A DNA stretch of 64,000 nucleotides from Thalassotalea sp. HSM 43. Lineage in GTDB: Bacteria > Pseudomonadota > Gammaproteobacteria > Enterobacterales > Alteromonadaceae. Below the pieces are notes generated by a model. The model made no database searches. It was not told where the DNA came from and saw only the letters and a program-made list of their open reading frames with translations. The stretch lies in assembly GCF_004752005.1 (NCBI RefSeq), contig NZ_CP038493.1, positions 2,690,302-2,754,301 on the forward strand, read 5' to 3'. This document shows positions 6 through 64,000 of this stretch, in pieces (position 1 is the first letter of the stretch; the number at the start of each line of letters is the position of its first letter). A program made the translations under genes and the position numbers.

Positions 6-1217
6 GTGAGATTTTTTAATAAACGCCTAATAAGTGTTGTTCTGTTATCAAGCGCGTTATTCGCTTGTTCATCAGACGACGAAGAAGAAGAAGATAAGGT
101 GGCAGAGCTTACCGAAATTGATGCATTGTTTGAGCCAGAAGTGGTTTGGGACGAAAGCATTGGTGACGGTGTGGCACATTACTTTTCTCGTCTAAAACCT
201 GCCATTGGTTACGATAAAGTATTCGCAGCGAGCCGTTTTGGTGAAGCCTACGCGCTTGACCAAAAAACCGGTGATGAAATTTGGTCTGTTGACCTTTTCG
301 ACATTAACGATGAACTAGGCTTTTTTGATGATCCTATTTCTGCTCGTATCGCAGGCGGCGCGACGCTAGGGTATGACAAGGTGGTATGGGGCAGTGAAAA
401 CGGTGACGTTTTTGCCTTAGACGCTAATACTGGTGAGCTTGTTTGGCACGCTAAAGTGTCAGGTGAAGTCATTTCAAAGCCAATTTTTGAAAGCAACTTG
501 CTGATTGCCAACACCGGCTCTGGTGCCTTGATTGCACTTGACGCAAATACCGGTGAACAAGTTTGGAAAGCCGAGCAATCGGTGCCGCCATTAACGTTAC
601 GCGGTGTTAGTGGTGTTGTTGCCAGTTCTGGTGGTATTTTCCTTGGTCTAGCATCTGGTGAAGTTGGTGTTTATATCATTGAAAGTGGTCAGCAAGGTTG
701 GGCAACCGAAATCGGTGAGCCAAGCGGTGCGACTGAATTACAACGTATTGTTGATGTTGACGTCACCCCGATCGTGGTGGGTGATAAAATTTACGCTATT
801 TCTACGAATGGTAATTTAGCGGCAATTGACTTACGCAGTGGTCGTGAACTTTGGAAACGTAAATACTCGTCTTATCGTCAATTGACCATCAGTGGCAACC
901 AAATTTTCGCAACCGATGTGCAAGGCCACGTTTATGCTATCGACCGCAATAGTGGTATGGAGCAATGGAGTAACCTGCTGTTGACCAATCGTCGTACAAC
1001 CGGTGCGGTAAGCGTTGGTAAATACGTTGTGGTTGGCGACTTTGAAGGTTATTTGCATTGGTTTGATAAAACCGATGGCAGCATAGTTGCACGCCACGAA
1101 GTTGATTCGAGCGGTATCTATGTCACACCAACGGTTGTTGACGGCTTGCTTTATGTAATGAGTCGCGATGGTGACTTAGAGGTGGTTAAAACACCTGAAC
1201 CAGCTGCAGCTGAATAA
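6..1217 (+). CDS. bamB: Outer membrane protein assembly factor BamB
   Basis: BamB is a lipoprotein of the BAM complex that helps BamA insert beta-barrel proteins into the outer membrane. The 403-residue product starts at a GTG and has a lipoprotein signal peptide ending in LFAC, so the lipidated cysteine is Cys21. An acidic stretch (DDEEEEDK) follows, and then PQQ-type propeller repeats recognisable as recurring G-x-x-x-W segments (GDEIWS, GELVWH, GEQVWK, GRELWK, GMEQWS). Length fits the family. The gene lies directly upstream of der, the usual gammaproteobacterial order (hisS-yfgM-bamB-der); the upstream partners are outside the window. The start lies 5 bases from the window edge, so its ribosome-binding site cannot be seen. 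Confidence 0.95.
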   Translation: MRFFNKRLISVVLLSSALFACSSDDEEEEDKVAELTEIDALFEPEVVWDESIGDGVAHYFSRLKPAIGYDKVFAASRFGEAYALDQKTGDEIWSVDLFDINDELGFFDDPISARIAGGATLGYDKVVWGSENGDVFALDANTGELVWHAKVSGEVISKPIFESNLLIANTGSGALIALDANTGEQVWKAEQSVPPLTLRGVSGVVASSGGIFLGLASGEVGVYIIESGQQGWATEIGEPSGATELQRIVDVDVTPIVVGDKIYAISTNGNLAAIDLRSGRELWKRKYSSYRQLTISGNQIFATDVQGHVYAIDRNSGMEQWSNLLLTNRRTTGAVSVGKYVVVGDFEGYLHWFDKTDGSIVARHEVDSSGIYVTPTVVDGLLYVMSRDGDLEVVKTPEPAAAE

Positions 1218-7005: not shown

Positions 7006-8895
7006 ATGACTGATCAATATAATTCTGAAGCCATTGAAGTATTAAGTGGTCTCGATCCGGTACGCAGACGACCGGGTATGTACACTGACACCATTCGCCC
7101 AAACCATTTGGGGCAAGAGGTTATCGACAACTCTGTCGATGAGGCCCTGGCCGGTCATGCCAGTAATATCCAAGTTATTTTACATGAAGATCAGTCACTT
7201 GAGGTTATTGATGACGGTCGAGGCATGCCCACAGATATCCACCCTGAAGAAGGGGTGCCTGGGGTTGAACTGATTTTCACTCGATTGCACGCCGGTGGTA
7301 AATTCTCAAATAAAAACTATCAATTCTCTGGTGGTTTGCATGGTGTTGGTATTTCCGTTGTTAATGCCTTGTCCAAACGAGTAGAAGTCATTGTTCGTCG
7401 TAATCAACAAGTGTTTGAAATGGCATTTGAGAATGGTGAAAAAGTCTCTGATCTCACCGTCACCGGTAGCGTAGGTAAAAGAAATACAGGTTCACGAGTG
7501 CGATTTTGGCCCGATGGTGGCTATTTCGATTCACATAAGTTTTCAGTGGCTAAAATGGCACACATCCTTAAGGCCAAAGCGGTACTTTGCCCTGGTTTAT
7601 CGATTAAGTTTCACGATAAAGTTGGTAATGAAAAGTATCAGTGGTGCTATGAAAACGGCCTTGAAGACTATTTAAAAGAAGCAGTAAATAAATTTACCAA
7701 TCTTCCAGAAGAGCCATTTATTGGCAGTTTTTCATCACAGCATGAAGCCGTCGACTGGGCTGTAACTTGGTTACCAGATGGCGGTGATAATGTTGGTGAG
7801 AGCTATGTAAACCTTATCCCGACCATTCAAGGCGGTACCCATGTCAACGGTTTACGTCAGGGGTTATTGGATTCCATGCGTGAGTTTTGTGAATTTAGAA
7901 ACCTTATTCCGCGTGGCGTTAAACTGACGCCCGATGATGTTTGGGATAAGTGTTCTTATATCTTGTCGGTAAAAATTCAAGACCCACAATTTGCCGGACA
8001 GACCAAAGAGCGTTTGTCATCAAGGCAGTGTTCAGCGTTTGTGTCTGGTGTGGTCAAAGATTCATTCAGCTTATGGTTGAATGAGCATACTGAAATCGCC
8101 GAAGCCTTAGCTGAGTTTTGTATTTCCAATGCACAACGTCGCATGCGTGCCAGCAAAAAAGTGGTCCGTAAAAAGGTCACACAAGGTCCAGCCCTGCCAG
8201 GCAAGTTGACCGATTGTGGCTCACAAGAGCCAGAGCGCACCGAATTATTCTTAGTAGAGGGTGACTCTGCTGGTGGTAGTGCTAAACAGGCTCGAGACCG
8301 TGACTTTCAGGCGATCATGCCGCTGCGTGGTAAAATCCTAAACTCATGGGAAGTAGAATCAGGACAAATCCTTGCGTCACAGGAAATTCACGATATTTCC
8401 GTCGCCTTAGGAATCGATCCTGAGTCTGAAGATTTATCAAGCTTACGTTACGGTAAAATCTGTATCTTGGCGGATGCTGACTCTGATGGTTTGCATATCG
8501 CAACCTTACTTTGTGCATTGTTTATGCAGCACTTTTTGCCTTTAGTTCAAGCGGGTCATGTGCATGTAGCCATGCCACCGTTATATCGTATTGATGTCGG
8601 TAAAGAAGTATTTTACGCGCTTGATGAGCAGGAAAAAGACGGTGTGTTAGATCGCATTGAAGCGGAAAAACTGCGAGGCAAAGTCAACGTACAGCGCTTC
8701 AAAGGTCTGGGTGAAATGAACCCACTGCAACTTCGAGAGACCACCATGGATCCAAATACACGACGTTTGGTGCAGCTAACGGTAGATGAATTTGATACAA
8801 CGATGGAACTTATGGATATGTTGTTATCGAAAAAACGTGCAGGTGACCGTAAAGAATGGCTACAAGAAAAAGGTAATTTGGTTAACCTGACCTAA
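7006..8895 (+). CDS. parE: DNA topoisomerase IV subunit B (ParE)
   Basis: ParE is the ATPase subunit of topoisomerase IV, which decatenates daughter chromosomes. The 629-residue protein has the GHKL ATP-binding motifs: EVIDNSVDEA with the catalytic Glu/Asn, DDGRGMPTD and GGLHGVGISVVNALS. The transducer domain follows, then the TOPRIM domain with EGDSAGGSA and DADSDG. The C-terminal GLGEMNP motif is intact. It is shorter than GyrB because it lacks the GyrB insertion. It ends the nudF operon, 88 bases after yqiA, and may have its own promoter in that gap. parC lies about 2 kb downstream. Confidence 0.97.
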   Translation: MTDQYNSEAIEVLSGLDPVRRRPGMYTDTIRPNHLGQEVIDNSVDEALAGHASNIQVILHEDQSLEVIDDGRGMPTDIHPEEGVPGVELIFTRLHAGGKFSNKNYQFSGGLHGVGISVVNALSKRVEVIVRRNQQVFEMAFENGEKVSDLTVTGSVGKRNTGSRVRFWPDGGYFDSHKFSVAKMAHILKAKAVLCPGLSIKFHDKVGNEKYQWCYENGLEDYLKEAVNKFTNLPEEPFIGSFSSQHEAVDWAVTWLPDGGDNVGESYVNLIPTIQGGTHVNGLRQGLLDSMREFCEFRNLIPRGVKLTPDDVWDKCSYILSVKIQDPQFAGQTKERLSSRQCSAFVSGVVKDSFSLWLNEHTEIAEALAEFCISNAQRRMRASKKVVRKKVTQGPALPGKLTDCGSQEPERTELFLVEGDSAGGSAKQARDRDFQAIMPLRGKILNSWEVESGQILASQEIHDISVALGIDPESEDLSSLRYGKICILADADSDGLHIATLLCALFMQHFLPLVQAGHVHVAMPPLYRIDVGKEVFYALDEQEKDGVLDRIEAEKLRGKVNVQRFKGLGEMNPLQLRETTMDPNTRRLVQLTVDEFDTTMELMDMLLSKKRAGDRKEWLQEKGNLVNLT

Positions 8896-58977: not shown

Positions 58978-59074
58978 TAAAAACTGCAGAGGGGAAGGAG
59001 TATGAGTAGCTTAAAATGTATGACGTAGCGAAAACAGCGAACTGTATATTGTCCCGCTTTAGCTACTTTTTATG
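58978..59074 (-). repeat. Decayed attC at the array's distal edge
   Basis: The stretch AGCTTAAAATGTATGACGTA and CCCGCTTTAGCTAC aligns with the intact site at 62085, but both cores are mutated: TAAC has become TAAA (58978-58981) and the right core TTTTTATG has lost GTTATATG. It marks the array boundary next to katG and should be inactive. Confidence 0.6.
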
Positions 59075-59167
59075 AGGCGATTGAACCGCAAACTTTTTAG
59101 CTTGCTGCAATGTCTTTGGATAAGGCATATTTTGCATTTATACCTTATTTAAATGAAGGTAGCTCGG

Positions 59168-59857
59168 CTACTTTCTGATACCGTAGGCAAAGCTACAATT
59201 TGGGAAAAACTTATATTTGTCTTCAGGGTGTAGCTCTACAATTTCTATATTGCTTACTTTATCAGTTTCTTGTTTTTTCTCGATATTAAAATAAAACCAC
59301 CATATTTGATTATCTGATGTTAATTCAATGTACGGGTAGCTTCTCATTTTCCATGTTCCGCTAAGATGATCAGTTTGTTCTTGATCTTTATTAGCAAACA
59401 CGAATTGGTAACTATGATCAGCTTTCAAATAAACTTTAACAGAAGTAGTGCAATTTCTACTTTCATATACATTTACTAGGTCTTGTTGCGCAACTTTATC
59501 ATTCTGTTTTACTCCCTCCGGAAGCAGAAATAAACCAACACTATCTTTTTTGTACCAATGATTACCTGAAACAAGCGATTGTACACTCGGCACAATCCAA
59601 CCGAGTTTAGTAAGCGTGTTGGTGATACTTTCCAAGCTATCCTCATCTTGAATAAATGGAGAATAAAGTAAGGTAGATTGATGAATTGTATCGGGGAATG
59701 TTAGGTTATTTGGAATGACTTCAAAATCAGCACTTTCTAATTCTTCACTGATTGTTTTAATTTCAGAGTCAGTTAAATAACGAGTGTACAGGTGAACCTT
59801 GGTAGAAGAACAAGCCGTCATAGTAAAACATAATAAAATACAGCTGATAAATTTCAT
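59168..59857 (-). CDS. Cassette-encoded lipoprotein (unknown family)
   Basis: A 229-residue predicted lipoprotein: signal peptide with TMTAC lipobox (Cys16), then a mixed alpha/beta sequence beginning YTRYLTDSEIKTISEELESA. No family is recognised. It contains two further cysteines (RNCTTSVKVY, FFPNCSFAYG) that could form a disulfide. Its cassette is about 906 bp. It is the outermost cassette gene, with the decayed attC on its 3' side and a well-formed attC on its 5' side. Confidence 0.6.
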   Translation of the reverse strand: MKFISCILLCFTMTACSSTKVHLYTRYLTDSEIKTISEELESADFEVIPNNLTFPDTIHQSTLLYSPFIQDEDSLESITNTLTKLGWIVPSVQSLVSGNHWYKKDSVGLFLLPEGVKQNDKVAQQDLVNVYESRNCTTSVKVYLKADHSYQFVFANKDQEQTDHLSGTWKMRSYPYIELTSDNQIWWFYFNIEKKQETDKVSNIEIVELHPEDKYKFFPNCSFAYGIRK

Positions 59858-59883
59858 CTAATCACAATCCTTTGTCGTATACC

Positions 59884-59981
59884 TAACGCCCACTAAAGGG
59901 CTGATCATTGCTTGCTAAAATGTGGTTCAAAGCGCAACCGATAAAACAGATACCAGTGTCGTCTTTATGCGCTTGTTATGT
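59884..59981 (-). repeat. attC recombination site
   Basis: Left core TAACGCC (59884-59890) and right core GTTATG (59975-59980) bound a 98-bp imperfect palindrome with AAAGGGCTGATC and TAAAATGTGG. It follows the DJ-1-like gene in the minus direction; the stop of that gene lies five bases from the core. Confidence 0.85.
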
Positions 59982-59985
59982 GCCT

Positions 59986-60735
59986 TTACAATCCATTTAA
60001 TATAATCATGTCTTTTGCGACTAGGGCAGCTGAAGGGAGAAACATTGTTGATACAATACGTTGATCTGTGACCACTTCGTGTTTATCTTTTAGTGTCTGT
60101 TTATTTTGAGCCAAAGCGCCATTCTTATTAAGTTGACTTTCAATAAAGAAAGGCAAAAGTGTGCCTTGTTTAGCCCAGGGCTTGGATATTTCAGTCGAAT
60201 TAGGAAATCCAGCTACTTTTTTCCCTTTAACCAAAAATTCCCCGGTAGATAATGTGACGTTGGTAATACCTGCAGCACCATGACCACCAACACCTACAAC
60301 ACCGCCTGACTCATACACACTACTGATAATAGAATGGATGTCTTTGTTATCTGCAACGTCGAACATTACACCGTAGCCACCACCAATAAATACGCCCCAG
60401 TAATCATTAGGGTCAATTTCATCCGGTGAGAATGAACTGTTAGCTTTTTCTAGGAAACCTTCATGTTTGATGGTGTAACTACTTATCCCTAGAGGTTCCA
60501 TCATAAATTCAACTTTGCCACCTTTGGGTGATACGAAGTCGACTTGAAATCCGTGACTAATAAAAATGTGATAAGGAGGCGCAAATTCCCATAAATTATT
60601 TCTCGCATCATGCTTTTCAGGATCACCCATATCTACTTTGTTCGATACGACGATTAGGACTTTCTTGGCAGGTTCAGCTATCGCATTTGTAGCAAGCAAT
60701 GCCGTTGCAAGTAAAATAGTGATTAAGATTTTCAT
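59986..60735 (-). CDS. DJ-1/PfpI-like exported protein lacking the catalytic Cys
   Basis: A 249-residue protein with a signal peptide (about 1-20, ending AIA) and a type 1 glutamine amidotransferase-like (Hsp31/DJ-1/PfpI) fold: AKKVLIVVSNK, then FEFAPPYHIFISHGFQVDFVS-like strand, GVFIGGGYGVMFDVADNKD, and the nucleophile elbow GVVGVGGHGAAGI. The position of the invariant nucleophilic Cys (C-H-G) is Gly151, so glyoxalase or protease chemistry is not expected. It is a cassette gene (876-bp cassette). A role in binding or a new activity is open. Confidence 0.85.
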   Translation of the reverse strand: MKILITILLATALLATNAIAEPAKKVLIVVSNKVDMGDPEKHDARNNLWEFAPPYHIFISHGFQVDFVSPKGGKVEFMMEPLGISSYTIKHEGFLEKANSSFSPDEIDPNDYWGVFIGGGYGVMFDVADNKDIHSIISSVYESGGVVGVGGHGAAGITNVTLSTGEFLVKGKKVAGFPNSTEISKPWAKQGTLLPFFIESQLNKNGALAQNKQTLKDKHEVVTDQRIVSTMFLPSAALVAKDMIILNGL

Positions 60736-60759
60736 TCTTTGCCTTTTTAATTAAAGTCA

Positions 60760-60845
60760 TTACATCGACTGATAAGAGTTAATAAAGGTGCAGGTGCTCA
60801 AACTACCTAGGCACTTAACGCTCTATTCTTAATGCGCTTGTTATG
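60760..60845 (-). repeat. attC site with mutated crossover core
   Basis: Right core GCGCTTGTTATG is intact, and an inverted repeat (AAGAGTTAATAAAGGTGC facing GCACTTAACGCTCTATTCTT) forms the stem. The left core is TTAC (60760-60763) instead of TAAC, which on the cassette strand changes the GTT crossover triplet to GTA. This would uncouple it from normal recombination. Confidence 0.65.
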
Positions 60846-60932
60846 TTGTTATTAACACTGGACCACGTTATTCAAAACCCAAACACATTACATAACGTAG
60901 TTACTTAGATATTAAGCTAAAGGTTAAAAAAT

Positions 60933-61112
60933 ATGTTTTCAATATTTAAGAAAGACCCAATTAAAAAACTAGACAAAGTATATGCAAGTAAACTTGAAGA
61001 AGCTATGCATGCCCAGCGTAATGGTGATATAAAATCATACGCAATGATCACTGCTGAAGCTGAAAAAATAAAAGTAAAAATTTTAGAGCTACAAGCTTCT
61101 GCAAAAACATAA
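60933..61112 (+). CDS. DUF6435-like small protein, reversed in its cassette
   Basis: A 59-residue basic protein, MFSIFKKDPIKKLDKVYASK then LEEAMHAQRNGDIKSYAMIT and a charged helix, matching the DUF6435 pattern of Alteromonadales and Vibrio as I remember it. It is on the plus strand while its neighbours are on the minus strand. AAAGG at 60920-60924 precedes the ATG by about eight bases. Its stop TAA (61110-61112) is formed by the attC core TAACGCC of the next site. A reverse gene usually needs its own promoter, which would lie in 60846-60932. Function unknown. Confidence 0.75.
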   Translation: MFSIFKKDPIKKLDKVYASKLEEAMHAQRNGDIKSYAMITAEAEKIKVKILELQASAKT

Positions 61113-61204
61113 CGCCTCATTAAGGGGCTGATAATTGTTGGTTAAAAATAAGCGACGCAGGAGCAAAAACCAACTGTTTTTTTTCTTTAGAGTGACTTGT
61201 TATG
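61110..61204 (-). repeat. attC recombination site
   Basis: TAACGCC (61110-61116) and GTTATG (61199-61204) with the motif AGGGGCTGATAATTGTTGGTTAAAAATA and its complement GCAAAAACCAAC. It follows the membrane-protein cassette gene, whose stop is inside the site. Confidence 0.88.
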
Positions 61205-61636
61205 TGGCTTTTTCTGATTTTCTGAGATTGGTGGTATCAAGTAATATAATAAAAATAGCATTACAATCTGTAATAAAAGACCTATCAATTTTGGATTAAT
61301 CTCTTGAAAGTTAATAAAGAGAGCAGCGTGCATTGCCAAATAAACACCAAGAGTATCGTATCCCCATTTCTTGCGAGCAATAGCTCCTGCTGCGCCAGTC
61401 GATAACAAAACGCCCATAGCAAATATATAACTAAAGTATCCATTTAAACTAAACGGGAGTATTTGATCATTTACTCGAGCGTCAATGAATACTTTAACCT
61501 CTGCAACTCCATCAGCTAAATCAGGAAAATTGACTACGTCTAAAGCTTGAGCTAACAAAGAAGCGCCTACGCCAATCCTCACTAGACCATATCCAAGTAA
61601 AAGTATTGCTATAAAAATTCCTATAATACGTTTCAT
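61187..61636 (-). CDS. Cassette-encoded small membrane protein (four helices)
   Basis: A 149-residue protein, no recognised family. It has four hydrophobic segments (about 4-28, 60-83, 93-110, 115-135), the last containing LIGLLLQIVMLFLLYYLIPP. The C-terminal KKPHNKSL runs into the attC core, so the final residues are set by the recombination site. The cassette is about 590 bp. It probably sits in the inner membrane; nothing indicates its role. Confidence 0.6.
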   Translation of the reverse strand: MKRIIGIFIAILLLGYGLVRIGVGASLLAQALDVVNFPDLADGVAEVKVFIDARVNDQILPFSLNGYFSYIFAMGVLLSTGAAGAIARKKWGYDTLGVYLAMHAALFINFQEINPKLIGLLLQIVMLFLLYYLIPPISENQKKPHNKSL

Positions 61637-61699
61637 GTGAAGACCATACTTGTTATTAATAAAATACAGTGATTCTGAATGCCAACCCTATGAACCACA

Positions 61700-61798
61700 T
61701 AACGCCCATTTAAGGGGCTGATAATAGCTTGCTAAAATGTGAAGCAAAGCGGAACCGAGCCAAACTTTAGCAGTCCCACACTTAAACAGCTTGTTATA
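61700..61798 (-). repeat. attC recombination site
   Basis: TAACGCCC (61700-61707) and GTTATATG (61793-61800) bound a 99-bp site with AAGGGGCTGATAATAGCTTGC and AAATGTGAAGCAAAGCGGAACCGAGCC. The stop codon of the next gene (61794) lies inside the right core. Confidence 0.88.
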
Positions 61799-62069
61799 TG
61801 CCTCTATTTCTAAAATAAAACTTACTAGCTTTGAAGTCATAAAATAACAAATAAAACAACGCAGCTATAAGCACTAAGGCAGTAAATAAAAAAGTAAGCC
61901 AAAAACCTACTGGATTCAGCTCTTTGGAAATAGATATAGCTCTTAAATAAATTTCACCACTAAAATATGCATCAAGAAGATAATCCGAACAAAAATACAA
62001 GCAAAGAACAATTACAGCATCAAACTGTGAAAAAGTCTTTTTTGATACCAAGTTCCATTTCAATTGCAT
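61794..62069 (-). CDS. Cassette-encoded small membrane protein (two helices)
   Basis: A 91-residue protein with two hydrophobic segments (about 18-40 and 52-74, LTFLFTALVLIAALFYLLFY) and a basic N-terminus. The last residues are YFRNRGI and the stop TAA is inside the attC core ATATAAC. No family recognised. The cassette is about 385 bp. Start ATG 62069 sits two bases after GGAG. Confidence 0.55.
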   Translation of the reverse strand: MQLKWNLVSKKTFSQFDAVIVLCLYFCSDYLLDAYFSGEIYLRAISISKELNPVGFWLTFLFTALVLIAALFYLLFYDFKASKFYFRNRGI

Positions 62070-62084
62070 GACTCCATGGGCATA

Positions 62085-62182
62085 TAACGCCCAAATAAGG
62101 GGCTGATTAACTGTTGGCTAAAATGTGTAGCGAAGCGAAACCGAGCCAACTGTAAAAATTCCCGCTTTAACTGCTTGTTATA
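62085..62182 (-). repeat. attC recombination site
   Basis: TAACGCCC (62085-62092) and GTTATATG (62177-62184). It contains the full central motif TTGGCTAAAATGTGTAGCGAAG paired with CGAAACCGAGCCAACTG, the best representative of the array's site family. Confidence 0.9.
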
Positions 62183-62513
62183 TGTACTTTACTACTGACA
62201 TTATTGTTTTAAAAGGCTCTAATGTCATACCTTTAAAATCACCCGCAAACATTGCAATGTGATATGCATCATAACCGAAATTATCTTTCAGTTTGAGATC
62301 AGCACCTTTTGATACAAGTAATTTGACAACTTCAATATGACCTGTACGACTAGCAACAATAAGAGCAGTAACCCCGTTTGCATCAGATACATTAATATCA
62401 CAACCTAAAGCTAAGGCTTCATTAACAAGAGCTCTATCACCATTAGCAGAAAAACGAATAATATCGATATTTTGCTCAGGTGATTTAGGTTTTAATAGTG
62501 GGAAATTGCGCAA
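62178..62513 (-). CDS. Short ankyrin-repeat cassette protein
   Basis: A 111-residue protein with about two ankyrin units: GCDINVSDANGVTALIVAS and TGHIEVVKLLVSKGADLKLK, with a partial third. Too short for a stable solenoid alone unless it pairs with another protein. It starts at TTG 62513 with AGGA six bases upstream. The final residues KYI and the stop are in the attC core (62177-62184). Likely a protein-binding module; partner unknown. Confidence 0.75.
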   Translation of the reverse strand: MRNFPLLKPKSPEQNIDIIRFSANGDRALVNEALALGCDINVSDANGVTALIVASRTGHIEVVKLLVSKGADLKLKDNFGYDAYHIAMFAGDFKGMTLEPFKTIMSVVKYI

Positions 62514-62530
62514 TTACTATCCTGTACATA

Positions 62531-62628
62531 TAACGCCCCGCTAAGGGGAAATTTATAAGTTGGCTAAAATAACGAACGGAGTGAGAAAAAGCCAACTGTA
62601 AATTTTCCCACTTGAGCGACTTGTTATA
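62531..62628 (-). repeat. attC recombination site
   Basis: TAACGCCCC (62531-62539) and GTTATATG (62623-62630), with a variant centre AGTTGGCTAAAATAACGAACG paired with GAGAAAAAGCCAACTG. The stop of the gene beginning at 63025 lies inside the right core. Confidence 0.88.
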
Positions 62629-63025
62629 TGCCTTTTTGCCAAACTTTTAACGTATACGGCTCCGCAACATCTGAAGTTTCAAAGTTAATATTTTTAATTA
62701 ACTCATTAAGTTTGACATCGTGAATGATGCAACCAAACGGAAGCTTTCCATGGGACTCACTTACCGCCGATATCCTAATCTGCCCAGCCATATCATCGAA
62801 CCACGAGTAAAAGATCATGGTTTTTTTCGTATTTTTTGAATTAAACAGTTCGGCACATTTACCAATGAAATCTTCAAGAGAGCCACGCCCCCATTCTTTA
62901 AGCAAGCTTTCGTTAATTCCAAAGGTTACTAAATTTGAATTAGCTTCTTCATTAATGTCAGTTGACTGGACTATTTCTGTTTCAACCTCTAGTTCATTGA
63001 GCCATTGATTTAGAGTGGTATGCAT
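62624..63025 (-). CDS. Cassette-encoded hypothetical cytosolic protein
   Basis: A 133-residue protein with no recognised family and no signal peptide. It is rich in acidic residues (NELEVETEIVQSTDINEEAN) and has a beta-type region MIFYSWFDDMAGQIRISAVS followed by FGCIIHDVKLNELI. The start ATG is 17 bases after the attC core of the upstream site with GAGGA upstream, so the whole gene fills its cassette (511 bp). Its stop TAA is supplied by the attC core. Confidence 0.6.
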   Translation of the reverse strand: MHTTLNQWLNELEVETEIVQSTDINEEANSNLVTFGINESLLKEWGRGSLEDFIGKCAELFNSKNTKKTMIFYSWFDDMAGQIRISAVSESHGKLPFGCIIHDVKLNELIKNINFETSDVAEPYTLKVWQKGI

Positions 63026-63041
63026 AATTCCTCAAGGCATA

Positions 63042-63143
63042 TAACGCCTCGATAAGAGGCAATAAAATAATTGGTTATACTTTAGCGAGGTACGAGCGCC
63101 AAGCCAATGATTTTATGTCCTTTTACTTCATCGACTTGTTAGG
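63042..63143 (-). repeat. attC recombination site (copy 1 of identical pair)
   Basis: TAACGCC (63042-63048) and GTTAGGG (63138-63144). The interior differs from other sites (AAATAATTGGTTATACTTTA facing GCGCCAAGCCAATG) but keeps the stem. Identical to the site at 63476. Confidence 0.88.
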
Positions 63144-63144
63144 G

Positions 63145-63465
63145 TTAATCTACCACCGCGGTATTGATTATGAAATTACAGAAACGCCGAATATTATGAT
63201 TACTGTTACTTTCTAATGCTTTAACCTTAAGTAAATACCCTTCAATATATGCCGATAAATTAGGGTATTCGTACCAATCTAATTTTGCTTTCCCCGCCAC
63301 CGAATCTGATAACCTTTTAATTGCTAACTCTGCGTTGTGTTTCGTAAAGTCACTTTCTTTCCACTGGTGATCAGGCTCAATCTTATTTTCGTATTTACCG
63401 CAAAGTTCTACCGTGTATCCGGGGAGAGATAGAAGAATGATAAAGGCAGTTATAAGCGATTTCAT
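63145..63465 (-). CDS. Cassette-encoded small secreted protein, copy 1
   Basis: A 106-residue protein with a signal peptide (about 1-19, SLPGYTV then ELCGKYENK) and no recognised domain. The mature part has two Cys (C22 and C96 region, RRFCNF) and conserved aromatics (DHQWKESDF, DWYEYPNL). The 3' end lies next to the attC core. The translation start is preceded by TTAGGG, the recombination-site core of the neighbouring attC, which may double as ribosome-binding site. Identical to the product at 63579. Function unknown. Confidence 0.65.
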   Translation of the reverse strand: MKSLITAFIILLSLPGYTVELCGKYENKIEPDHQWKESDFTKHNAELAIKRLSDSVAGKAKLDWYEYPNLSAYIEGYLLKVKALESNSNHNIRRFCNFIINTAVVD

Positions 63466-63475
63466 GAATTAACCC

Positions 63476-63577
63476 TAACGCCTCGATAAGAGGCAATAAA
63501 ATAATTGGTTATACTTTAGCGAGGTACGAGCGCCAAGCCAATGATTTTATGTCCTTTTACTTCATCGACTTGTTAGG
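63476..63577 (-). repeat. attC recombination site (copy 2 of identical pair)
   Basis: TAACGCC (63476-63482) and GTTAGGG (63572-63578); identical to the site at 63042. Confidence 0.88.
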
Positions 63578-63578
63578 G

Positions 63579-63899
63579 TTAATCTACCACCGCGGTATTG
63601 ATTATGAAATTACAGAAACGCCGAATATTATGATTACTGTTACTTTCTAATGCTTTAACCTTAAGTAAATACCCTTCAATATATGCCGATAAATTAGGGT
63701 ATTCGTACCAATCTAATTTTGCTTTCCCCGCCACCGAATCTGATAACCTTTTAATTGCTAACTCTGCGTTGTGTTTCGTAAAGTCACTTTCTTTCCACTG
63801 GTGATCAGGCTCAATCTTATTTTCGTATTTACCGCAAAGTTCTACCGTGTATCCGGGGAGAGATAGAAGAATGATAAAGGCAGTTATAAGCGATTTCAT
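63579..63899 (-). CDS. Cassette-encoded small secreted protein, copy 2
   Basis: Identical in sequence to the gene at 63145 (434 bases apart), same 106-residue secreted product. It is the array-proximal copy, so under a promoter near attI it would be transcribed first of the two. The duplication is so recent that no substitution separates the copies. Confidence 0.65.
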   Translation of the reverse strand: MKSLITAFIILLSLPGYTVELCGKYENKIEPDHQWKESDFTKHNAELAIKRLSDSVAGKAKLDWYEYPNLSAYIEGYLLKVKALESNSNHNIRRFCNFIINTAVVD

Positions 63900-63909
63900 G
63901 AATTAACCC

Positions 63910-64000
63910 TAACGCCGCAATAAGCGGAGAGTAATAGTTTGCTATAATGTGAAACGAAGTGGAACCGAGCAAACTGTTACGAATCCGACTTTATTGCCTT
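63910..64000 (-). repeat. attC recombination site, cut by the window end
   Basis: TAACGCC (63910-63916), the central motif TTTGCTATAATGTGAAACGAAG paired with GGAACCGAGCAAACTG, then the right arm GACTTTATTGCCTT. The right core is beyond 64000. It shows that the array continues. Confidence 0.8.

Follow-up and report, generated by a model that had tools for sequence, protein, structure and literature searches.

An integron of Thalassotalea sp. HSM 43 and attI sites apart from integrase genes in the Alteromonadaceae

Must the attI site of an integron sit beside the integrase gene, or can it stand apart and be served in trans? The question is raised by the right end (58978-64000) of a 64,000-nucleotide stretch of the Thalassotalea sp. 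HSM 43 chromosome, where small genes alternate with attC sites; the whole stretch, G000:C1:2690302-2754301 of a single-contig genome of 4.01 Mb (G000), is called the window below. Integron integrases (IntI) are made on SOS induction, excise cassettes via folded attC and insert them at attI. We find it very probable that this genome combines a complete integron (A), to which the array in the window belongs, a second integron, integrase-less attI arrays that are used in trans, and an attI-A extended by palindromes. For the family the case seems to us evenly poised that the integron is a distributed system, in which an attI module of ~235 bp is separable, is copied and kept without an integrase, and takes up cassettes through the action, in trans, of resident or visiting integrases; attI, in other words, may be a dispersed platform.

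Integron A and the other arrays of the chromosome

Positions 58978-64000 hold the attI-distal half of a complete sedentary chromosomal integron, which lies between a purL-like and a katG-like gene (these names, and that of the glmU-like gene below, are our own assignments from reading the proteins). Its attC sites were sought with a covariance model, R1, built from 15 sites of the G000 genome. A scan of the window returned nine minus-strand attC, all within 58978-64000 and all at E<=2.7e-5; because seven of the 15 training rows are window sites, one of them extending 4 bases beyond the window edge, these scores are partly given by construction. R1 also detects attC outside its training set, both in a further array of this chromosome (array C) and in related genomes. 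After the nine, the best window matches (E 0.042 and 0.26) are two of these sites again, read on the other strand, and the remainder have E>=1.6; chance matching as the source of the window attC was ruled out, R1 finding nothing better than E=1.6 left of 58978. The first-pass annotation, made from the sequence of the window, had proposed a chromosomal integron array with ten attC-like sites. The array stands, and so do nine of the sites, but the tenth (60816-60843, minus strand), a truncated remnant without the central stem that was read by eye, scores at chance level (13 bits, E=2.1); together with a degenerate site at 58978 it makes up the weak members of the array.

The compensatory changes on both stem arms that had been noticed are real. 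The helix of the attC alignment has 22 pairs, ten of them with double changes, and 91.1% of its cells are paired; covariation is 0.306 against a shuffled mean of 0.123 (none of 500 shuffles reached 0.306), and slid alignments used as a control gave 0.022-0.105. Folds of single sites with DNA parameters were for several attC no better than shuffles (59884, z -0.7; 61110, z -0.5; 61700, z 0.1), and Rfam at gathering scores gave no match in the window. A family of attC peculiar to the host, as first supposed, had to be given up in view of strong R1 matches in Shewanella (107.8 and 105.1 bits at two loci), Pseudoalteromonas (101) and Psychrosphaera (92). Vibrio-type attC were also considered and rejected, with one of four Vibrio loci matched by R1 (36.9 bits; the cassette number of those loci is unchecked).

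Past the window edge array A continues with attC at L008 8418, 8955, 9454, 10013, 10496 and 10882 (window coordinates are those of locus L008 plus 56000), and counts 16 attC in all, the degenerate and the truncated one included. Both an integrase a short distance to the right of 64000 and an attI had been anticipated there, and both were found. The gene intI-A (L008 11573-12535, window-equivalent 67573-68535, plus strand) lies 3.6 kb beyond the window edge, and the putative attI-A, with its core at L008 11268, abuts the first cassette between intI-A and the array, an arrangement repeated in relatives. The interval from intI-A to attI-A holds two perfect 20-bp palindromes, TTACTGAGCCGGCTCAGTAA, at L008 11396 and 11490, and a LexA box (CTGTN8ACAG, L008 11546-11561) that begins 27 bases ahead of the intI-A start codon. 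The 320-aa IntI-A scores 415.7 bits against TIGR02249 (integron integrase; cut-off 265) and 278 bits against the equivalog NF011946, under the cut-off of 435; its residues 4-318 align to IntI4 (2a3v_A), and its closest relative in the named genomes, from Thalassotalea litorea, is 76% identical. The purL-like gene is downstream of intI-A and the far end of the array is at the katG-like gene; these flanks and the single contig speak for a chromosomal location, no search aimed at transposon ends having been made. The cassette genes point away from the right edge, as had been claimed, in so far as they lie on the minus strand, the sole exception being 60933-61112 (plus strand).

Array A itself is an ordinary kind of chromosomal integron. 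It resembles superintegrons of the Vibrio cholerae IntIA type in its divergent integrase gene and cassettes, the LexA box at intI, homogeneous attC and small genes of mostly unknown function. Unlike them it is small (16 sites), and its chromosome also carries another integron and two integrase-less arrays headed by attI. A further difference is that the palindromes of attI-A are phased, while repeats are absent from the attIA of V. cholerae according to PMC8946536.

The second integron (B) has an intact integrase frame, intI-B, of 338 aa at G000:C1:1935503-1936519, one gene from the glmU-like gene. Its first cassette is identical at 512 of 512 positions to a cassette of array A, and the identity starts and stops at recombination points. 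No LexA box (CTGTN8ACAG) was found in the 340 bp upstream of intI-B (L104), and thus one of the integrons looks SOS-controlled and the other not. At attI-B a second, CCATGTTTCACG-like motif lies at +148 from the core (L009 5330-5480).

Two further arrays of this chromosome are headed by attI and have no integrase. Array C (L108) holds 12 attC of at least 57 bits with R1 and lies at a tRNA-Ser gene. Over 58 bases its start shares 90% identity with the integron B attI region, and alignment with MAFFT shows more matching stretches toward the position expected for intI-B; the next feature found on that side is tRNA-Ser. Arrays A and C are joined by four alignments of 99.0-99.7% identity over 394-535 bp, at three places of C. 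The second motif recurs in array C, without intI, as a CCATGTTTCACG-like sequence at +151 (L108 5990-6196). Array C is flanked by tRNA-Ser(TGA) genes at L108 5771-5861 and 17485-17575, with repeats of the 3' end extending to 17922, and may therefore lie in an integrative island. Array D (L109) is followed by a proS-like gene; it has two attC and an attI-A core with one palindrome, at +210. Its larger cassette (L109 2419-4072) carries both of the candidate defence genes called by PADLOC, PDC-M18A and PDC-M18B, and no cassette common to D and the other arrays of G000 was found. None of the seven Phage_integrase matches of G000 falls within the array C or array D locus. A 444-aa tyrosine-integrase match is found at G000:C1:3930415.

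In 4 of 14 relatives an LRAT-like gene adjoins proS where G000 has array D, and the other ten differ; this suggests that array D was gained in the G000 lineage, loss elsewhere being possible. The flanks are too diverged for the exact insertion boundary to be placed by eye.

With at least two attC each (12 in C, two in D) and no nearby intI, arrays C and D are clusters of attC sites lacking integrases (CALINs), from which they differ in being headed by attI. According to PMC12444791, CALINs can be mobilised in trans. IntegronFinder is described as detecting attI only for class 1 (PMC9024848), so other attI at CALINs would be overlooked. Integrase-less arrays have been known before (PMC9229058, PMC4119200): in Alteromonas, attC occur at two further integrase-less regions, one of which is missing from one strain, and these regions are reported to be expressed in both strains with transcript data (PMC4119200). 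They resemble C and D; in its accessible text PMC4119200 reports no attI or palindromes for them. Our literature search, which left out most subscription journals, turned up no integron study of Thalassotalea, and neither CALINs headed by attI nor phased attI palindromes were described in what it covered. Complete chromosomal integrons, multiple IntI per genome and integrase-less arrays are already known or common, and what looks new is the attI platform.

The attI-A module across the family

attI-A appears to be an extended site, made of the core and 20-bp palindromes near +117 and +210. At related loci the first palindrome stands at +117 or +118 and further ones follow at steps of 92-94 bases; the intI-A locus of G011 has up to four palindromes, and T. 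litorea more, less regularly placed. At most sites the core itself contains one palindrome arm, CTCAGTAA. Accessory repeats alongside a core are also a property of attI1 of class 1 integrons, whose DR1 and DR2 favour attI x attC recombination (PMC8946536) and bind IntI1 (PMC12901181); unlike attI1, with direct repeats next to the core, attI-A has palindromes ~117 and ~210 bp away and no direct repeats beside its core.

A pattern for the core was searched in 196 genomes of the family, including 8 of the 15 genomes of the genus (the two G011 sites come from the search of the genus), and gave 62 sites, distributed over 39 genomes and 19 of 52 genera. As a control, the pattern was reversed and then had eight hits in the 196 genomes, and about 8 of the 62 cores may thus be chance. 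Among 394 genomes sampled across the order, eight had a core match: six of the 35 sampled from the family, and two of the 359 from outside it, both with one mismatch.

Only six of the 62 sites adjoin an intact integrase gene; one (G021) adjoins a fragment and 55 have no trace of intI in tblastn searches with IntI-A and IntI-B (threshold 1e-3), two of these lying within 1.3 kb of a contig end. With up to three mismatches allowed, a palindrome is present at +113..120 in 39 sites and at +205..215 in 26, against eight palindromes at other offsets up to +640 and two upstream, and a TAAC junction lies ahead of the core in 52. On the cassette side, attC in the right orientation accompany all six sites with intact intI, the site with the fragment and 31 of the other 55; within 2.4 kb of the 56 sites without intact intI, 56 attC are on the cassette side and in the right orientation and seven are otherwise placed. 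Left out of this tally are L175 1537 (20.3 bits), two rows of L116 at 28.3 bits each, the array-A sites distant from attI, and hits in loci other than those of the 62 sites; the tally was made with E limits of 0.1 or 0.01, depending on the scan, and with flanks of varying length, and it counts L171, which has two cores, twice. A LexA box is present at five of the six sites with intact intI and at one of the 56 others, so that the regulatory box tracks the integrase and the palindromes track attI.

Profiles of the integrase-less sites were drawn from 52 of them (three of the 55 were dropped as redundant or short), and those of the palindromes from the 30 and 18 sites that have them. Conservation extends beyond the core and palindromes to the TAAC junction, to GTCTAC following the core, to a pair of short motifs between about +42 and +75 and to the GGATA/TATCC that flanks the first palindrome, but not to the spacers. 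The way the sites were chosen explains neither the fixed spacing nor the conservation of bases that the search patterns did not cover.

The cores of attI-A and attI-B both match TAACAG[C/T][T/A]TATTA, and with this common pattern either integrase might use both putative sites. At least two IntI matches per genome were found in 41 of the 196 genomes. G004, without an IntI match, has three attI-A loci with an exact core and a fourth with one mismatch; here an attI-adjacent segment (L116 7010-7381) is repeated at 7953-8324, one cassette on, with 100% identity over 372 bp, and a weak 28-bit attC is present in both copies. G069, also without an IntI match, has five attI cores; two of its integrase-less modules, at L171 3352 and 5283, are separated by 1.9 kb, and attC lie both between the two and further out. 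As for a palindrome-binding protein encoded next to a lone palindrome, two lone palindromes with a single mismatch (L118 5059 and L123 5137) sit at gene ends, and the gene at L118 begins, as we read it, like a GntR-type regulator.

Capture in trans and its alternatives

Signs of use in trans come from G011 and G115. At the integrase-less attI of G011 a single cassette with an attC was found. It is 99.5% identical (406 columns) to a cassette of the intI-A array, and the identity stops on the attI side at CTAAC, the junction; as the two attI regions of this genome are strongly diverged from each other, a recent cassette seems to have entered an old site. The integrase-less attI of G115 is 92.5% identical over 252 bp to the intI-linked one, from the TAAC junction to just beyond the second palindrome, and since the identity ends before intI the module appears to have been copied without it.

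On the mechanism that we propose, SOS induction would lead IntI to excise cassettes through folded single-stranded attC and to insert them at any attI that it recognises, distant copies in trans included; the working unit would then be one or two integrases and several attI platforms. The palindromes of attI-A probably bind a protein, which could be IntI itself or a host factor and which would shape the attI complex, helping to build or control it.

The usual view of CALINs would instead make integrase-less attI arrays the dead remnants of integrons whose intI was lost by deletion. We consider this unlikely, although the literature treats CALINs as degraded integrons (PMC9024848), and although the G021 site retains an intI fragment, as decay predicts, some relatives have a truncated or interrupted intI, no attC was found at 24 of the 55 sites without intI trace (with a model trained on another genome), and array C has the look of such a remnant, with a significant match of its start to the attI-B region over 58 bases and further likeness toward the intI-B position. 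Remnants of deletion are harder to see in the 55 of 62 sites that keep no trace of intI (two too near a contig end to tell), in a G115 copy that ends past the second palindrome and before intI, in a G011 site whose cassette nearly duplicates one in the intI-A array, and at proS, where 4 of 14 relatives have the LRAT-like gene in the place of array D.

Capture in trans has its own difficulties, to which the G021 fragment and the 24 sites without attC also belong. Many of the 55 sites lack one or both palindromes, 13 of the 62 have neither a phased palindrome nor an attC, and chance hits or remnants probably account for some of the cores. Since a pattern was used to choose the sites, part of the conservation seen in core and palindromes is built in. 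Ten of the 55 sites are in genomes with IntI-A elsewhere and two are at contig ends, but 30 are in 25 genomes with another IntI match and no close IntI-A, and 13 are in five genomes without an IntI match (E<=1e-40), two of these assemblies being 84-85% complete; for G089 the lack of IntI is taken from its absence among the matches listed. Homologous recombination could have contributed to the sharing of cassettes among A, B and C, and a search for a sigma-70-type promoter gave no match at attI-A (L008 11260-11600) or at the attI of array D.

A different role for the palindromes, as repressor operators of an integrase or cassette promoter or as short terminators unrelated to recombination, seems to us doubtful. 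Palindromic operators of about 20 bp are common, and a terminator scan calls both palindromes of attI-A; such roles do not explain why the palindromes keep fixed distances at sites without intI or why the core repeats the arm CTCAGTAA at most sites. Insertion at secondary attG sites is known (PMC12444791), but that it produced arrays C and D, with attI-like starts by coincidence, is scarcely credible when D opens with an attI-A core that has a palindrome at +210, C with an attI-B start and the second motif at +151, and palindromes at +113..120 in 39 of 62 sites are not a chance outcome.

A genome survey counted 2961 CALINs against 2760 complete integrons, and CALINs have been proposed to be decayed integrons (PMC9024848). 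If some of them carry attI platforms that work in trans, integrons would shape genomes at several loci simultaneously, many CALINs would be living satellite platforms and not dead remnants, and surveys that ignore attI would miss the platform; the phased palindromes would amount to a novel type of recombination-site architecture. The module poses a concrete question, namely what binds the palindromes near +117 and +210 and whether the binder controls attI x attC recombination.

Cassettes of array A

All features in this section are on the minus strand unless stated otherwise, bit scores of attC are from R1, and genes were taken from the open reading frame list and a Pfam scan. The left end of the array is the degenerate terminal attC at 58978-59072 (34.4 bits; fold z +0.5 for 58980-59080), which adjoins the katG-like gene. 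A cassette gene of 229 aa without a Pfam family (59168-59857) and an attC (59884-59978, 63.1 bits) are followed by a gene of 249 aa (59986-60735) assigned to DJ-1/PfpI with a score barely above the cut-off (PF01965, 26.9 against 26.6 bits). Beyond the truncated remnant, the reversed gene at 60933-61112 (plus strand, 59 aa) belongs to DUF6435 (PF20027, 96.9 bits); the R' box of the attC at 61110-61202 (70.8 bits) shares bases with the stop codon of this gene.

Genes of 149 aa (61187-61636) and 91 aa (61794-62069), both without a Pfam family, are followed by attC at 61700-61796 (86.3 bits) and 62085-62180 (100.3 bits) respectively. A gene of 111 aa with ankyrin repeats (62178-62513; PF12796, 48.4 bits) precedes the attC at 62531-62626 (91.5 bits), and the cassette of the next gene, of 133 aa (62624-63025), occurs again in array C with 99.4% identity over 535 bp. 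The attC at 63042-63141 (68.8 bits) opens a tandem cassette duplication that spans 63042-63924, with 99.6% identity over 449 bp and a repeat unit of 434 bp (2.0 copies, 99% match). One copy holds a gene of 106 aa at 63145-63465; the other has its attC at 63476-63575 (68.8 bits) and its gene, also of 106 aa and recovered by the repeat search as well, at 63579-63899. The last attC, 63910-64000 (87.1 bits), is cut by the window edge (the whole site reaches 64004) and is the end of the 512-bp cassette also found in integron B.

Eight of the array-A cassette proteins, a subset, gave no defence match with PADLOC. A second tandem cassette duplication lies beyond the window edge at L008 10493-11271 (100% over 393 bp), and a cassette of 97 aa was seen in four copies, two in array A and two in array C.

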